Source: Aeromicrobium sp. Root344
GTDB taxonomy: Bacteria > Actinomycetota > Actinomycetes > Propionibacteriales > Nocardioidaceae
Assembly (NCBI RefSeq): GCF_001425755.1
Contig: NZ_LMDH01000001.1
Location: forward strand, 2,285,802 to 2,349,801
Length of the DNA: 64,000 bases
Reading direction: 5' to 3'
Below are positions 2,320 through 7,661 of this stretch, one piece after another. Numbering within the stretch: position 1 is the stretch's first letter; each line of letters starts with the position of its first letter. Both the position numbers and the translations under genes were made by a program. The notes beneath the pieces were generated by a model. That model was not told where the DNA came from. It was given only the letters and a program-made list of their open reading frames with translations, and ran no database searches.

Positions 2320-3076
2320 TCCGGCCGGAACCCTGCTCGCCCTCGACTTCGACGGCACGCTGGCGCACATCGTCGACGACCCGACCCAGGCGTACGCCCA
2401 TGAGCGTTCGGTCGCTGCGCTGGCCCGGCTCGGCCACGTCCTCGGCCAGGTCGCGATCATCACCGGGCGTCCCGTCCGGCAAGCGCTCGAGCTCGGTGGC
2501 TTCGACGGCGTCGCGGGCCTCGAGCGGCTCGTGATCTGGGGCCAGTACGGCGCCGAGCAGTGGGACGCGTCGACGGCCGAGACGGTCGAGCCGGAACGTC
2601 CCGAGCCGATCAGCCGCCTGGCCGACGAGCTGCCCGGCTGGCTCGAGTCGCGCGGCGCCGGCCACGTACGCATCGAGGACAAGGGACTTGCGATCGCGGT
2701 GCACACCCGCGGCATCGACCCGGGCCTGCTCGACGAGCTGGCCCAGCCGCTGGCGGACCTCGCCGGTGACCTCGGCCTCGCGGTCGAGCCCGGCCGCCAG
2801 GTCATCGAGCTGCGCGCCCCGGGCATCGACAAGGGCGACGCCGTACGTGCCCTGGCGTCACGCCTCGGTGCCCGCCAGGTGATCTTCGCCGGCGACGACC
2901 TCGGCGACCTGCCTGCGTTCGCGGCGGTCGAGCAGCTCCGTGAGAACGGCGTCGGCGGGCTGCTGATCTGCTCGGCGTCCGCGGAGCAGGACGCCCTGGT
3001 GGCTCACGCCGACGTCGTCCTCGACGGGCCCGACGCCGTCGCCGACTGGCTGGAGGAGCTCGCGGATGAGTTCTGA
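2285..3076 (+). CDS. otsB: Trehalose-6-phosphate phosphatase
   Basis: HAD-superfamily phosphatase (263 residues) that removes phosphate from trehalose-6-phosphate, the second step of the OtsAB route. The catalytic motif LDFDGTLA gives the nucleophile and acid/base Asp21 and Asp23. IITGRPV is motif II-like, and FAGDDLGDLPAF near residue 200 is the Mg-binding HAD motif IV. EDKGLAIAVHTRG matches OtsB's conserved E-K-...-H segment. It starts inside the end of the LytR_C gene (35-bp overlap) and its end overlaps the next gene by 11 bp, so translation is coupled. otsA is nearby on the opposite strand. Confidence 0.93.
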   Translation: MPAPVRAAVIADPAGTLLALDFDGTLAHIVDDPTQAYAHERSVAALARLGHVLGQVAIITGRPVRQALELGGFDGVAGLERLVIWGQYGAEQWDASTAETVEPERPEPISRLADELPGWLESRGAGHVRIEDKGLAIAVHTRGIDPGLLDELAQPLADLAGDLGLAVEPGRQVIELRAPGIDKGDAVRALASRLGARQVIFAGDDLGDLPAFAAVEQLRENGVGGLLICSASAEQDALVAHADVVLDGPDAVADWLEELADEF

Positions 3077-3515
3077 TCCGGTGCTGCCGCACACGCGGTG
3101 GACTCGCGTGCGTACGGTGCTCAACTGGATCAACCTCAGCACGCCGCTCGGGCTGCTGATCGCACGGATCGGCGGTGCGACCATCACGCGGCGCGGGCGG
3201 GGCACCTACCTCGCGGGGGGCTACCGGTTCGGCTTCCCGGTCGCCAGCGCGTTCACGATCGGCAGCGTCATCACGAGCAAGCACGAGCTCGACTGGCTGC
3301 TCGAGCGGCCGGTGCTGCTGCAGCACGAGGACCGGCACTGCACGCAGTACGCGTTCGTCCTCGGCGTCGCGATGCTGCCGGTCTACTTCCTCTGTGTCGG
3401 CATCTCGTACGCGATCGCCGGCGACCACTCGTCGTACAACCCCTTCGAGCGTCTCGCCAACCTCGCCGACGGCAACTACCCGCCCCCGCGCACCCGCTTC
3501 TCCCGCAAGCACTGA
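3066..3515 (+). CDS. Conserved membrane-associated protein with an HExxH motif, function unknown
   Basis: Protein of 149 residues, not assigned to a named family here. It begins with a basic stretch, then a hydrophobic segment (INLSTPLGLLIARIGG), a Gly/Arg-rich loop (TRRGRGTYLAGGYRFGF), and a second strong hydrophobic helix (FVLGVAMLPVYFLCVGISYA). Just before that helix is LLQHEDRHCTQYA, where HEDRH fits the zinc-metalloprotease pattern HExxH. I do not see a clear third ligand, so protease activity is unproven. Similar small actinobacterial proteins exist in my memory with variable annotation. It overlaps otsB by 11 bp and ends before a palindromic element. Confidence 0.7.
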   Translation: MSSDPVLPHTRWTRVRTVLNWINLSTPLGLLIARIGGATITRRGRGTYLAGGYRFGFPVASAFTIGSVITSKHELDWLLERPVLLQHEDRHCTQYAFVLGVAMLPVYFLCVGISYAIAGDHSSYNPFERLANLADGNYPPPRTRFSRKH

Positions 3516-3524
3516 CCCGCCGCT

Positions 3525-3661
3525 GGGGTTGGCGGTTTACCAAGAGGGCAAGGGAAACTGCGCGATTGCTCCGACTCCGCACGGCAACCTGCCACTCCGC
3601 AAGGCGCGCGCACCCTGAGGAGTGGCGGTTTGCCCTGACCTCCTGGTAAACCGCCAACCCC
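3525..3661. repeat. 137-bp intergenic palindromic element with perfect 18-bp terminal inverted repeats
   Basis: Left arm GGGGTTGGCGGTTTACCA (3525-3542) and right arm TGGTAAACCGCCAACCCC (3644-3661) are exact reverse complements. Inside, GGCAACCTGCCACTCC (about 3583-3598) pairs imperfectly with GGAGTGGCGGTTTGCC (3619-3634), so the whole element can fold into one long, nearly continuous stem. It begins 10 bp after a stop codon and ends about 85 bp before the SAM riboswitch. I see no ORF in it and no convincing target-site duplication. It could be a REP/MITE-like element or a transcription end. Confidence 0.7.
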
Positions 3662-3744
3662 GGGGTGACCGAGGGGCGAACAGGCGCCGTCCAGCATCCG
3701 GACCGAGTGGACACATCGTGAGACGCGCCCGTAGGCTGAAACCA

Positions 3745-3856
3745 CTCATCACGAGGGGTACAGGGACACGGCCCTATGACGCCCCAGCAACCAGTCGCTC
3801 ATCGACCAGGTGCTCAATCCGTCCCGGACGACAGTCGATCCGGGAAAGATGAAAGG
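3745..3856 (+). ncRNA. SAM-I (S-box) riboswitch upstream of the threonine-synthase-like gene
   Basis: The stretch from 3745 follows the S-box consensus in order: the 5' strand of P1 (TCATC, 3746-3750), then GAGGGG, AGGGA, GGCCCTATGA, CCCCAGCAACC (3782-3792), AGGTGCTCAATCC (3808-3820), a variable P4 stem, and the P1 3' strand GATGA (3849-3853). The P1 3' strand runs directly into AAGG of the Shine-Dalgarno GAAAGG (3851-3856), 8 nt before the GTG start at 3865. SAM binding, which stabilises P1, would therefore mask ribosome binding. This suggests translational control. No terminator stem with a U-tract is present. A Rfam RF00162 covariance search would settle it. Confidence 0.85.
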
Positions 3857-3864
3857 TCACTTCT

Positions 3865-5136
3865 GTGAGTACATCCGCTCCAAGCCTCGCCGCACCCGCC
3901 CTCCGCGAAGGCGCCTTCGGCAACGCCGTCGAGCTCGTCTGCCGCGAGTGCGGCACGACGCGTGAGCTCGGCCCGCACTACGTGTGTGCCGAGTGTTTCG
4001 GCCCCCTGGAGATCCGGTACGACTTCCCGGCCATCACCCGCGAGCAGATCGCGGCCGGCCCCAACAACATCTGGCGCTACAAGGCACTGCTCCCCGTGCC
4101 CGACGACATCGAGCTCAGCCCCAACCTCGAGCCGGGCTTCACGCGACTCCTCAAGGCTGACAACCTCGCCGCCGAGCTGGGCCTCAAGAGCCTCTGGGTG
4201 AAGGACGACAGCACCAACCCGACCAACTCCTTCAAGGACCGCGTCGTCGCCTGCGCGCTGAGCGCCGCCCGCGAGTTCGGCAGCAAGGTGTTCGCCTGTC
4301 CCTCGACCGGCAACCTCGCCAATGCCGTCGCCGCCGCTGGTGCCCGCGCGGGCATCAAGACCGTCGTCTTCATCCCGAGCAACCTCGAGACGCCCAAGCA
4401 GGTCAACTCGGCGGTCTACACCGAGAACCTCGTCGCGGTCGACGGCAACTACGACGACGTCAACAAGCTCGCCTCCGAGATCGCCGGCGAGCAGGACGGC
4501 TGGGCGTTCGTCAACGTCAACGTCCGCCCGTTCTACGCCGAGGGCTCCAAGACGCTGGGCTACGAGATCGCCGAGCAGCTGGGCTGGCGCCTGCCCGACC
4601 AGATCGTCATCCCGGTCGCCTCCGGCTCGCAGCTGACCAAGGTGCACAAGTCGTTCAAGGAGCTCATCGCCCTCGGACTCGTGGAGGACAAGCCCTACAA
4701 GGTCTTCGGCGCCCAGGCCACCGGCTGCTCGCCGGTCTCGGAGGCGTTCCGCGAGGGCTGGGACGTCGTACGACCTGTCCGCCCCGACACGATCGCCAAG
4801 TCGCTCGCGATCGGCAACCCCGCCGACGGCGCGTACGTCCTCGACATCTGCCGTGAGACCGGCGGCGCGATCGCCGACATCTCCGACGACGAGGTCCGCG
4901 ACGCGATCGTCCTGCTGGCGCGCACCGAGGGCATCTTCACCGAGACGGCCGGCGGCACGACCGTCGGCGTCCTCAAGAAGCTCGTCGAGACCGGTCAGCT
5001 CGATCCCGAGCTCGAGACGGTCGTGATCAACACCGGCCACGGCCTCAAGACGCTCGACGCGGTCACCGAGCTGGTCGGCCCCGCAGCCACCATCGCCCCG
5101 ACGTACGAGGCCTTCGTCGCCGCCGGCATCGCCTGA
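3865..5136 (+). CDS. thrC: Threonine synthase family PLP enzyme; probably an O-phosphohomoserine-dependent homocysteine synthase (MetM type)
   Basis: Fold-type II PLP enzyme of 423 residues; automatic annotation would say threonine synthase. A four-Cys zinc ribbon opens it (C26, C29, C41, C44). The PLP lysine is K124 in NPTNSFKDR, and PSTGNLANAVAAAG is the phosphate-binding loop. Family substrate: O-phospho-L-homoserine. Two context facts argue against a plain threonine role: a SAM-I riboswitch directly upstream, and a CysO-like sulfur carrier gene 25 bp downstream. This fits donation of carrier thiocarboxylate sulfur to make homocysteine, the route I recall being reported in Streptomyces as MetM/MetO. 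hom and thrB, usual neighbours of canonical thrC, are absent. Start GTG at 3865, SD GAAAGG. The homocysteine assignment is inference. Confidence 0.85.
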   Translation: MSTSAPSLAAPALREGAFGNAVELVCRECGTTRELGPHYVCAECFGPLEIRYDFPAITREQIAAGPNNIWRYKALLPVPDDIELSPNLEPGFTRLLKADNLAAELGLKSLWVKDDSTNPTNSFKDRVVACALSAAREFGSKVFACPSTGNLANAVAAAGARAGIKTVVFIPSNLETPKQVNSAVYTENLVAVDGNYDDVNKLASEIAGEQDGWAFVNVNVRPFYAEGSKTLGYEIAEQLGWRLPDQIVIPVASGSQLTKVHKSFKELIALGLVEDKPYKVFGAQATGCSPVSEAFREGWDVVRPVRPDTIAKSLAIGNPADGAYVLDICRETGGAIADISDDEVRDAIVLLARTEGIFTETAGGTTVGVLKKLVETGQLDPELETVVINTGHGLKTLDAVTELVGPAATIAPTYEAFVAAGIA

Positions 5137-5161
5137 GTCCAGAGAACACCCAAGGAGCACT

Positions 5162-5440
5162 GTGAGCATCAACGTACGCATCCCGACGATCCTGCGCACC
5201 TACACGCAGGACCAGTCGCAGGTCACCGCCGAGGGCGAGACCCTGACCGAGGTCCTCGAGTCGCTCGAGGGCGCGTTCCCCGGCATCAAGGCGCGAGTCG
5301 TCGACGAGCAGGGCAAGCTGCGCCGCTTCGTCAACATCTACGTCGCCGAGGAGGACGTGCGCTTCGCCCAGGGCCTGGACACGCCGACCCCGGCCGGCAC
5401 GCAGGTCTCGATAATCCCTGCCGTCGCCGGGGGTTGCTGA
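5162..5440 (+). CDS. CysO/MoaD-ThiS family sulfur carrier protein ending Gly-Gly-Cys
   Basis: Ubiquitin-fold sulfur carrier of 92 residues. It strongly resembles mycobacterial CysO: VRIPTILRTYT at the start, LRRFVNIYVAEEDVRF in the middle and IIPAVAGGC at the end. The Gly-Gly tail is where a MoeB/MoeZ-type enzyme adenylates and thiocarboxylates such carriers. Here one extra Cys follows GG (codons GGG GGT TGC TGA), so a Mec/JAMM-type peptidase must expose the diglycine before loading. The gene follows the PLP enzyme by 25 bp with SD AAGGAG and a GTG start, within the SAM-controlled unit. It probably supplies sulfur for homocysteine; a cysteine-synthesis role is the alternative. No peptidase or activating enzyme is in the window. 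Confidence 0.88.
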   Translation: MSINVRIPTILRTYTQDQSQVTAEGETLTEVLESLEGAFPGIKARVVDEQGKLRRFVNIYVAEEDVRFAQGLDTPTPAGTQVSIIPAVAGGC

Positions 5441-5464
5441 ACTCGCGGCACAGCCTTGTAGGCT
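5434..5464 (+). promoter_or_regulatory. Possible separate promoter for the cold-shock gene
   Basis: TTGCTG (5434-5439), a 19-bp spacer and TAGGCT (5459-5464) would place transcription start near 5471, giving a 5' leader of about 50 nt before the csp ATG at 5523. The spacer is longer than usual, so this is tentative. Confidence 0.35.
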
Positions 5465-5522
5465 CTGCGCATGAAGGGGCTCCGGCAGGTGGGTTCCTCC
5501 AGAATCAGGTGGGAGTGGCGGC

Positions 5523-5723
5523 ATGGTGCAAGGCACCGTCAAGTGGTTCAACGCTGACAAGGGCTACGGCTTCATCGAGGTCGAGGGCCAGGACGATGTC
5601 TTCGTCCATTGGTCCAAGATCGCGTCAGACGGTTACAAGACTCTCGAGGACGGCCAGAAGGTCGAGTTCGAGGTCGTCGACGGCCCCAAGGGTCGCGAGG
5701 CCCACGAGGTCATCGGGCACTGA
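5523..5723 (+). CDS. CspA-family cold-shock protein
   Basis: Single cold-shock domain of 66 residues: an RNA/ssDNA-binding OB fold acting as an RNA chaperone. RNP1-like KGYGFIEV and RNP2-like VFVHWSKI are both present. RNP2 has Trp where CspA usually has Phe/His-Phe, and [11 protein letters not shown] is the usual N-terminal block. Length is normal. The gene sits between the sulfur carrier and a rho-independent terminator, and probably has its own promoter inside the preceding intergenic segment. The same neighbour (csp after a MoaD-like gene, groEL further on) is, from memory, seen in Streptomyces. Confidence 0.95.
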
Positions 5724-5735
5724 GCCCGTGAACGG

Positions 5736-5762
5736 ACCCGGTCCGGGGGGACCGGGTTTTTT
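5736..5762 (+). terminator. Rho-independent terminator after the cold-shock gene
   Basis: A 9-bp GC-rich stem ACCCGGTCC / GGACCGGGT (5736-5744 and 5749-5757) with a four-base GGGG loop is followed by a run of six T (5757-5762). It lies 12 bp after the csp stop and is one of the clearest intrinsic terminators in the window. Confidence 0.9.
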
Positions 5763-5785
5763 CATGCCCGAAACACCTGCGTGAC

Positions 5786-5835
5786 GTATGTGACACTTGC
5801 GATGTCACATACTCGCTGACATACTCCGAGTATGT
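5786..5835 (+). promoter_or_regulatory. Leaderless promoter embedded in inverted repeats (putative operator) of the cupredoxin membrane operon
   Basis: GTATGTGACA (5786-5795) and TGTCACATAC (5803-5812) form a perfect 10-bp inverted repeat. The seven bases between are cTTGCGA, and TTGCGA (5797-5802) is a good -35. It is followed at exactly 17 bp by CATACT (5820-5825), then 6 nt to the ATG at 5832. A second palindrome ACATACTC-C-GAGTATGT (5819-5835) covers the -10 and the start codon. Two dyads on a promoter strongly suggest a dimeric repressor. Which regulator binds is unknown. Confidence 0.65.
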
Positions 5836-7661
5836 TCATCTCTGCAGCCGACCCCGTCACCGCACCCGCCGGAGGCGCCGCGATCGGTCAGGTCATCGGC
5901 CTGTCGATCGCCGCGGGCATCGTCACGGCCATCCTGCTGGTCATCGCCTGGGCGCACCGCACGCACCGCATCGAGTGGATCCAGCGCGCGGGCGAGCGGC
6001 TCGGGGCGCGCACCGGCGAGCCCGGCTGGGCCGCGATCCCGACGCTGTTCGTCGCGAGCTCGCTGATCGTCGCGCTGCTCGGGTTCATGTGGGACGTCAG
6101 CCTGCACGCCGGCCGTGGCCGCGACGCCGGCCCGTTGGCCAACCCCGCGCACTACCTGATCCTCTACGGGCTCTTCGCGCTGTTCGTGGCCGGCATGTCA
6201 GCGGTCATCTACCCGCGCGACGGCGAGAAGCCCGGCATCGCCTCGGTCCGCATCACCCGCAACTGGTACGCCCCGGTCAGCGGCATCTTCATCGCCGCGT
6301 GTGGCCTGTACGCCCTGATCGGCTTCCCCCTCGACGACGTCTGGCACCGGATGTTCGGCCAGGACGTCACGCTCTGGGGACCGACCCACCTGATGCTGAT
6401 CGGCGGCGCCGGGCTGTCCACCGCCGGCATCATCCTGCTGCACCGTGAGGCCGACTTCGCGCTGCGCCAGAACGGCAAGGAGATGCCGACCTGGATGCGG
6501 ACCGCGACGCTGTCGATCAGCTTCGGCGCCCTGCTGATCGGGCTCTCGGTGTTCCAGGCCGAGTTCGACTTCGGCATCGCGCAGTTCCGCATGGTGTTCG
6601 CGCCGCTCATGATCGTGGCCGCCGCTGGCGTGACTCTCGTCGCCGCCCGCCTCTACGTCGGCCCGGGCGCCGCGATCGTCGCCGCGGTCTTCTTCCTGCT
6701 GATGCGCGGCATCATCTCGTTCATCGTCACCGACTTCTTCGGCGAGGCGCACCACGTGTTCCCGCTCTACCTCGGCAGCGCGGTGCTGATCGAGCTGCTG
6801 GCGTTCACCCAGCTGCGCCACAAACCCTTGTGGTTCGGCGCGATCGGCGGCCTCCTGATCGGCACGATCGGCCTGGTCATCGAGAAGTTCTGGAACGACC
6901 GCGTCTTCCAGTTCCCGTGGACCCAGGACATGTGGCTGGAGGGCCTGCTCATGGCCGTACCCGTCGCGATCGCGTCGGGCCTCTGCGGTGCACTGTTCGC
7001 ACTCGGCCTGCAGGGCCGGCTCCCGGCAGCGAAGATCAGCCGGGCGATCATCACGGTCTCGGTGCTCGTCATCGCGGCAGCCGTCGCCAACGGCCTGCAC
7101 GCGACGGTGCCCAAGAACGCCTCGGCGAGCTTCGCGCTGACCCAGGTCGGCACCACCGAGCACCCCGAGGTCACCGCCAAGATCACGGTCAAGCCCGCCG
7201 ACCTCATCGACGACCACCCGACGTGGGTCCAGATCACGGCGTGGCAGGGCGGTGGCGCCGGCGTCGTGACGGATCGCCTGCGGCGTACGGGCGACAACAC
7301 GTGGGAGTCGACCAAGCCCGTGCCGGTCGGCGGCAACTGGAAGACCCTGCTGCGCGTCCAGGACGGACGTACGCTCGCCGCCGTGCCGATCTTCATGCCG
7401 GCCGATGCGCCGCTGAGGGTCAAGGAGGTTCCCGCCTCTGCCGAGTTCACCCGCAAGTTCGTGCCGGAGATCGACATCCTCCAGCGCGAGCGCAAGGGTG
7501 ACACGTCGCCCTGGCTGTGGGGTGCGGCCAACATGGTCGTGCTGCTGTGCAGCCTCGCGATCATCATCGGCATCTCGGTGTCCGTCGCCCGCGTGGCGCG
7601 CCGCATCGAGGAGCACGAGGCCGACTCGTCGGGAGACCGTACGCCTACCCTGACGTCATGA
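5832..7661 (+). CDS. Polytopic membrane protein with conserved His/Asp sites and an extracytoplasmic C-terminal domain, function unknown
   Basis: Protein of 609 residues with about ten predicted membrane helices in residues 15-420, an extracytoplasmic beta-rich domain (about 425-560) and a final helix near the C-terminus (WGAANMVVLLCSLAIIIGIS). In or next to helices there are spaced ligands: D88/H92 (MWDVSLHAG), H107 (PAHYL), D168/H172 (LDDVWHRMFG) and H186 (LWGPTHLM), suggesting a metal or haem site. The outer domain (VPVGGNWKTLLRVQDG) resembles YtkA/FixH-like copper-associated domains by eye only. It leads a four-gene operon that includes a cupredoxin-like lipoprotein. It has a leaderless start at 5832 and overlaps the next gene by ATGA. 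No named family is recognised. Confidence 0.75.
   Translation: MFISAADPVTAPAGGAAIGQVIGLSIAAGIVTAILLVIAWAHRTHRIEWIQRAGERLGARTGEPGWAAIPTLFVASSLIVALLGFMWDVSLHAGRGRDAGPLANPAHYLILYGLFALFVAGMSAVIYPRDGEKPGIASVRITRNWYAPVSGIFIAACGLYALIGFPLDDVWHRMFGQDVTLWGPTHLMLIGGAGLSTAGIILLHREADFALRQNGKEMPTWMRTATLSISFGALLIGLSVFQAEFDFGIAQFRMVFAPLMIVAAAGVTLVAARLYVGPGAAIVAAVFFLLMRGIISFIVTDFFGEAHHVFPLYLGSAVLIELLAFTQLRHKPLWFGAIGGLLIGTIGLVIEKFWNDRVFQFPWTQDMWLEGLLMAVPVAIASGLCGALFALGLQGRLPAAKISRAIITVSVLVIAAAVANGLHATVPKNASASFALTQVGTTEHPEVTAKITVKPADLIDDHPTWVQITAWQGGGAGVVTDRLRRTGDNTWESTKPVPVGGNWKTLLRVQDGRTLAAVPIFMPADAPLRVKEVPASAEFTRKFVPEIDILQRERKGDTSPWLWGAANMVVLLCSLAIIIGISVSVARVARRIEEHEADSSGDRTPTLTS

Follow-up and report, generated by a model that had tools for sequence, protein, structure and literature searches.

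The window analysed here, a stretch of 64,000 nucleotides from Aeromicrobium sp. Root344, contains a SAM-I riboswitch followed on the same strand by a gene for a threonine-synthase-like enzyme and a gene for a small sulfur carrier, here called metM and metO. The features of the locus are:

3732-3737, + strand: possible -10 element TAGGCT, just 5' of P1 (weak; read from the sequence)
3741-3743, + strand: ACC, 5' side of the P1 extension, partner GGU at 3855-3857 (minimum-free-energy fold, computed only)
3743-3855, + strand: SAM-I (S-box) riboswitch aptamer (RF00162 covariance match)
3852-3856, + strand: Shine-Dalgarno AAAGG of metM, within the 3' side of P1 (sequence and predicted fold)
3865-5136, + strand: metM, fold-type II PLP enzyme, threonine-synthase-like, putative O-phosphohomoserine-dependent homocysteine synthase (sequence, profile and fold comparisons)
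5162-5440, + strand: metO, ThiS/CysO-like sulfur carrier with the C-terminus ...AVAGG plus one encoded Cys (sequence and profile)

The neighbours of metM are trehalose-phosphatase-like and cold-shock-like genes, and it does not share an operon with hom or thrB. The cold-shock-like gene after metO (5524-5724) was named by eye, the submitted frame having no Pfam or NCBIfam match, and has a terminator-like hairpin behind it at 5740-5758. The interval from the upstream gene to the riboswitch contains a long inverted repeat (3525-3661) with 37-nt arms, 63 nt apart, that are 86% complementary overall and perfect over the outer 18 nt; no second copy was found in the window (at up to two mismatches) or in the other loci compared.

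As originally predicted, a fold-type II PLP gene is followed after 25 nt by a carrier gene: metM starts with GTG and encodes 423 amino acids matching PALP (Pfam, E 2.4e-69), and metO encodes 92 amino acids matching ThiS (Pfam, E 2.4e-14). MetM scores 265.3 bits against the NCBIfam threonine synthase equivalog TIGR00260, above the cut-off of 167.1, so its standard name would be ThrC; the model fails to separate the MetM group from the canonical ThrC group. A structure predicted from 38 aligned sequences (mean pLDDT 93.1, pTM 0.91) retrieved threonine synthases at all of ranks 1-21 in a fold search. With canonical threonine synthases (PDB 2zsj, 2d1f, 1uim and others) MetM shares the fold and the PLP site motif SFKDR, but it has other residues on the phosphate side and an additional N-terminal Cys4 ribbon.

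The residue differences are systematic. At 24 positions MetM is invariant (at least 95% of the 38 sequences) while a different residue is invariant in four ThrCs, namely that of this genome and three from other loci; relative to these four, MetM is not ThrC-type at the positions concerned. R221 and Y224 of MetM replace N and R of ThrC, and S253-G254 replace N-A; three PDB ThrC chains agree with the ThrC motif S-V-N-P-x-R. Among 221 homologous loci, 216 retain R221 and 217 retain Y224, the remainder being mostly gaps. This set comprises the present locus, 140 others and 80 with named records; six MetM genomes among the 147 of the phylum sample described below are not in it, and it includes one identical pair (L091 of G275 and L283), five further loci having been grouped in the duplicate check solely through the shortness of their extracted proteins. 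Among named records, the ten closest relatives of MetM are Nocardioidaceae-titled, with 75-85% identity.

The ribbon cysteines (C26, C29, C41 and C44) are nearly invariant in the 38 sequences, and the ribbon is missing from this genome's canonical ThrC. Three loci from Prauserella and Amycolatopsis (L256, L262 and L292) have S, E, S and D at these positions and no metO found adjacent. Among 213 of the 221 loci, 8 having been dropped for gaps or short contigs, an adjacent metO was lacking in 3 of 4 ribbon-less loci versus 33 of 209 others (p 0.016). We considered the ribbon as a docking site and draw nothing from this association, because the three cases represent one lineage.

The predicted SAM-I riboswitch upstream of the PLP gene is borne out by a strong, full-length match to RF00162 at 3743-3855 on the + strand (72.5 bits against a gathering score of 44.4, E 4.9e-15, model positions 1-108 of 108), the only such match in a search of the whole 3,874,254-base genome. 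The minimum-free-energy fold of 3740-3880 is that of a SAM-I aptamer, in which the predicted P1 closing stem comprises UCAUC/GAUGA (3746-3750/3848-3852), a 2 by 2 mismatch and ACC/GGU (3741-3743/3855-3857). Fold energy is by itself weak evidence (z -1.45, 15 of 200 shuffles equally good), and the aptamer assignment is carried by the covariance score. P1 had been described as abutting the Shine-Dalgarno; the adjacency holds, but AAAGG lies inside the closed stem and not merely beside it. In 81 of the 97 homologous loci with a recognised aptamer end, the end of P1 and the start of a Shine-Dalgarno-like motif are no more than 2 nt apart, the pattern used having missed the other 124 of the 221. 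A consensus scan found no intrinsic terminator between the aptamer and metM. This arrangement suggests that SAM would shut off metM-metO translation with no separate expression platform. According to the available text of PMC1262725, the base stems of actinobacterial riboswitches overlap the translation start directly, with no further hairpins, which is the layout upstream of metM; the same text of this 2005 paper, in which metM is not among the genes considered, reports no RNA element on methionine operons. As to transcription, 14 of 106 loci have TANNNT in the 16 nt before P1, where 6.7 would be expected; the excess is weak, and a promoter at this place was set aside; no sigma-70-type promoter was found in 3500-5900 by consensus scan.

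MetO is 55% identical to this genome's own CysO. A metO-type gene adjoins metM in 181 of the 221 loci, in 180 of them within 250 nt, and none was found beside metM in 40. The original description of the locus stands in that aptamer and carrier are both present, and is amended in that the aptamer starts at 3743 and the carrier ends ...AVAGGC, one residue past GG. Over the 181 loci, 121 MetO C-termini are exactly GG (a 122nd was misparsed) and 22 are GGC, the rest having other tails or being unparsed. Counted from the sequence contexts, 19 of the 22 GGC tails are encoded TGC TGA, and the single Cys is probably mutational, a product of codon slippage, as a triplet duplication in GGCTGA would fit. 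E1 enzymes require a free C-terminal GG, so a MetO ending GGC would need trimming before activation. The CysO of this genome (L022 7092-7379) ends GGSASGF and likewise needs trimming after GG. We considered whether a tailed MetO predicts the peptidase Mec; Mec is found in 33 of 36 genomes with a tailed MetO and 76 of 79 with an untailed one (four loci could not be assigned), and this equal frequency means that co-occurrence gives a link between tail and Mec no support. At E 1e-6, three tailed-MetO genomes (G293, G010 and G276) gave no match to Prok-JAB.

The genome is well equipped with other sulfur and threonine genes. A canonical thrC lies in a hom-thrC-thrB operon (L018 6268-9520), and metM is thus not the sole thrC, in keeping with the original prediction. 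MetX and MetY are both encoded, metY adjoining metX, and no carrier gene was found near them among the genes called in L019. Homocysteine in this genome therefore does not depend on the MetM route alone, which, as far as the genes show, would not be needed for viability. A cystathionine gamma-synthase-like (MetB-like) gene follows a CBS-like gene. Mec, CysO and CysM are encoded together at L022 6631-8338, far from metM, and MetM itself is not CysM-like. The genome has a single Prok-JAB match, within Mec-CysO-CysM, and a single ThiF match over the cut-off, which carries a rhodanese domain.

The MetM/MetO system was reportedly described in Streptomyces albulus by Hasebe, Adachi, Maruyama and Hamano in 2024 (doi 10.1128/aem.01247-24), the pair being said to form homocysteine from O-phosphohomoserine and the carrier thiocarboxylate. 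A Streptomyces report of this kind had been mentioned in the original prediction, and its existence (Hasebe et al. 2024) is confirmed by the available text of PMC12172450, which describes S. albulus MetM as a homocysteine synthase and MetO as a neighbouring sulfur carrier, with a SAM riboswitch upstream that is absent in Microcystis. The riboswitch had been offered as independent support, a standing it loses because S. albulus metM bears one too (PMC12172450, available text). Four sequence-level features of the system are present in our genome, namely a ThrC-like enzyme distinct from the genome's ThrC, an adjacent GG-bearing carrier, a SAM riboswitch and an E1; the ThrC-like enzyme, adjacent carrier and riboswitch are as the available text describes for S. 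albulus, and Streptomyces loci in our set are 62-67% identical to this MetM. A difference from the S. albulus system as described is that the present genome also has MetX and MetY; the MetO encoded here ends GGC. The system itself is already known and this locus is a further example; what it adds to the known pair is the coexistence with the classical route, the switch on the ribosome site and Mec as a probable partner. In the table of PMC2267785, as far as available, SCO4293 (putative thrC) and SCO4294 appear with sulfate assimilation genes and SCO2910-2912, and we infer that these two genes are metM and metO of S. coelicolor.

Two further pathways invite comparison. The CysM/CysO/Mec/MoeZ pathway of Mycobacterium tuberculosis, in the available text of PMC3227635, has in common with the present system an O-phospho amino acid substrate class, a carrier thiocarboxylate and a rhodanese E1. 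It differs in that MetM is ThrC-like and not CysM-like, and our genome has its own Mec-CysO-CysM elsewhere. Wolinella succinogenes, with HcyS, HcyD, HcyF and MetY, is said to make homocysteine from a carrier thiocarboxylate (work credited to Krishnamoorthy and Begley in 2011), and a metalloprotease reportedly removes the residue after GG of the carrier and also frees homocysteine. The carrier thiocarboxylate as sulfur source and the residue after GG reported there are as we propose here, but in Wolinella MetY acts with O-acetylhomoserine, in contrast to a ThrC-like enzyme with O-phosphohomoserine; a Wolinella-type layout, with carrier and dedicated protease beside metY, was not encountered among the genes called in L019.

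We consider it very probable that a SAM-I riboswitch here controls a MetM/MetO module for homocysteine synthesis, the catalysis being predicted by comparison with these systems. We predict that MetM receives O-phosphohomoserine from the products of hom and thrB and eliminates phosphate on PLP, as threonine synthase does, and that the sulfur of the MetO C-terminal thiocarboxylate, instead of water, is then added at the gamma carbon to give homocysteine. The one ThiF-type E1 of the genome, which carries a rhodanese domain, would activate MetO, and Mec would trim the Cys after GG in new MetO and release homocysteine from the MetO adduct. When SAM is plentiful, the anatomy of the leader suggests that the aptamer closes, P1 holds the metM Shine-Dalgarno and metM-metO translation falls. 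Counting against this interpretation, a cyanobacterial homologue sharing 51.6% identity with S. albulus MetM acted in vitro as a threonine synthase and as a threonine deaminase and brought no methionine rise in cells, according to the available text of PMC12172450.

In a phylum sample of 396 genomes, MetM, called at 270 bits or more, is present in 147; this count excludes six weaker matches (E 1e-60 to 1e-77). A SAM-I match, at any place in the genome, occurs in 128 of the 147 MetM genomes versus 88 of the 249 others, counts that ignore shared ancestry. Among the matches listed, the SAM-I end lies -24 to 174 nt from the MetM match start in 75 of 78 MetM genomes, the exceptions being G130, G152 and G248. 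The association of riboswitch and metM is thus seen in the phylum sample at large. Of the 147 MetM genomes 44 have MetX, versus 118 of the 249 others (odds ratio 0.47, p 0.0007, ancestry ignored). In the host's family (149 genomes), MetM occurs in 134 and MetX in 69, with both in 63, MetM without MetX in 71, MetX alone in 6 and neither in 9 (p 0.79, ancestry ignored). The anti-correlation of the phylum sample is not seen within the family, and so mirrors lineage to the same degree as function. All 37 genomes of the host's genus have MetM and 35 of the 37 have MetX, and MetA was found in none of 112 family genomes sampled. By the family and genus counts, MetM is standard in the family, with MetX/MetY as an addition kept by this genus.

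Mec is a probable missing partner of MetM-MetO. Prok-JAB (Mec-type JAMM) matches occur in 140 of the 147 MetM genomes versus 101 of the 249 others (odds ratio 29, p 3e-31, ancestry ignored), a co-occurrence that may instead reflect CysO-CysM. In one locus of a distant genome (L306, genome G213) a single strand encodes a PAPS reductase domain, ATP-sulfurylase, a permease (by eye), Prok-JAB, a ThiS-CysM fusion, MetM, MetO, ThiF, NIL and, as the last gene, a PP-loop protein that is LarE-like by eye; the fusion, a CysM-like enzyme joined to a ThiS domain, occupies 2804-3955. In G248 a stretch of 4.3 kb carries, all on the same strand, metM, a Prok-JAB match and a gene that is ThiF-like by eye. Our model for the role of Mec is the Wolinella route, in which a single metalloprotease reportedly does both jobs, trimming of the carrier and release of homocysteine. 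The available text of PMC3227635 states that Mec hydrolyses the CysO-cysteine adduct; Mec may also free homocysteine from the MetO adduct.

In deep-branching loci, metO is immediately followed by a small NIL-domain gene: in L300, L301, L304 and L306, and with a weaker match in L147. The first three are records titled Nitrospirae or Thermodesulfovibrio-type and have, further downstream, a canonical thrC whose product shares 58-59% identity with the ThrC of this genome, with hom and E1 also present in L301. In the available text of PMC12068725, methionine is bound by the NIL domain of a methanogen homocysteine enzyme, which suggests a methionine-sensing role beside MetM; that the NIL protein there senses methionine is a fair guess. 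More tentatively, and with somewhat less than even confidence, we propose that one thiocarboxylate cycle of MetM, MetO, a MoeZ-type E1 and Mec serves homocysteine synthesis in Actinomycetota, with NIL as a methionine-sensing partner in deeper lineages. MetO would often be a pro-protein with residues after GG, the Cys found here mimicking the CysO-Cys amide cut by Mec; Mec would expose GG, the E1 load sulfur and MetM make the MetO-homocysteine adduct, which Mec would cut again. If true, a single peptidase would serve both cysteine and methionine synthesis, and NIL beside metO would unexpectedly match the methanogen homocysteine enzyme, which has a NIL subunit.

Other explanations of the locus can be weighed against the same data. 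The threonine synthases at fold-search ranks 1-21, the TIGR00260 score above cut-off and the threonine made in vitro by the cyanobacterial homologue (PMC12172450, available text) would all suit a second threonine synthase that, with expression following SAM, draws O-phosphohomoserine off to threonine at low or high methionine, MetO serving as a carrier for some other purpose. SAM control and the adjacent sulfur carrier speak against this, and in three Nitrospirota-titled loci metM-metO and a canonical thrC lie a few hundred nt apart, an arrangement left unexplained by a duplicate threonine synthase. Because the genome has a separate canonical thrC, already placed in an operon with hom and thrB, and because its product differs from MetM in the residues described, a threonine-only role is rejected as the main reading and a second threonine synthase is highly improbable. 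It is also improbable that the family's homocysteine is made in the plant-like manner by cystathionine gamma-synthase acting on O-phosphohomoserine, with MetM as a side route: metM carries the one SAM-I riboswitch detected in the genome, and S. albulus is reported to need MetM for methionine prototrophy (PMC12172450, available text), points to be set against the cystathionine gamma-synthase-like gene after the CBS-like gene and the 71 of 149 family genomes with MetM but without MetX.

The question of the sulfur donor is closer. MetM might use free sulfide with O-phosphohomoserine, MetO being a helper or belonging to another enzyme and the presence of Mec being due to CysO-CysM. The 40 of 221 MetM loci without an adjacent metO found, including the three ribbon-less Prauserella and Amycolatopsis loci, are consistent with this, as are the position of Mec beside CysO-CysM in our genome and its similar frequency with tailed (33/36) and untailed (76/79) MetO. 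We nevertheless regard free sulfide as unlikely, given a carrier within 250 nt of metM in 180 of the 221 loci and the retention of a distinct MetO despite a 55% identical CysO in the same genome.

Recognition of the MetM/MetO module bears on how genomes are read. Those with MetM but without MetX, the pattern of 71 of the 149 host-family genomes, can be misread as methionine auxotrophs because the standard model names MetM genes threonine synthase. According to the available text of PMC5764234 (2018), Acidimicrobium ferrooxidans and others are without a known homocysteine route, and MetM loci in Acidimicrobiia-titled MAGs (L286, L288, L296 and L297) make a gap of this type testable. The link to Mec would supply a concrete missing step, the release of homocysteine from the carrier. 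Methionine feedback has been sought in Streptomyces, the available text of PMC4365011 noting no SAM riboswitch on metE, metH or metK, and control of the first committed step by a SAM switch is consistent with that account. Among the SAM-I places listed for the phylum sample, 75 of 150 are not upstream of MetM, and several of these immediately precede MetX matches in family f20.
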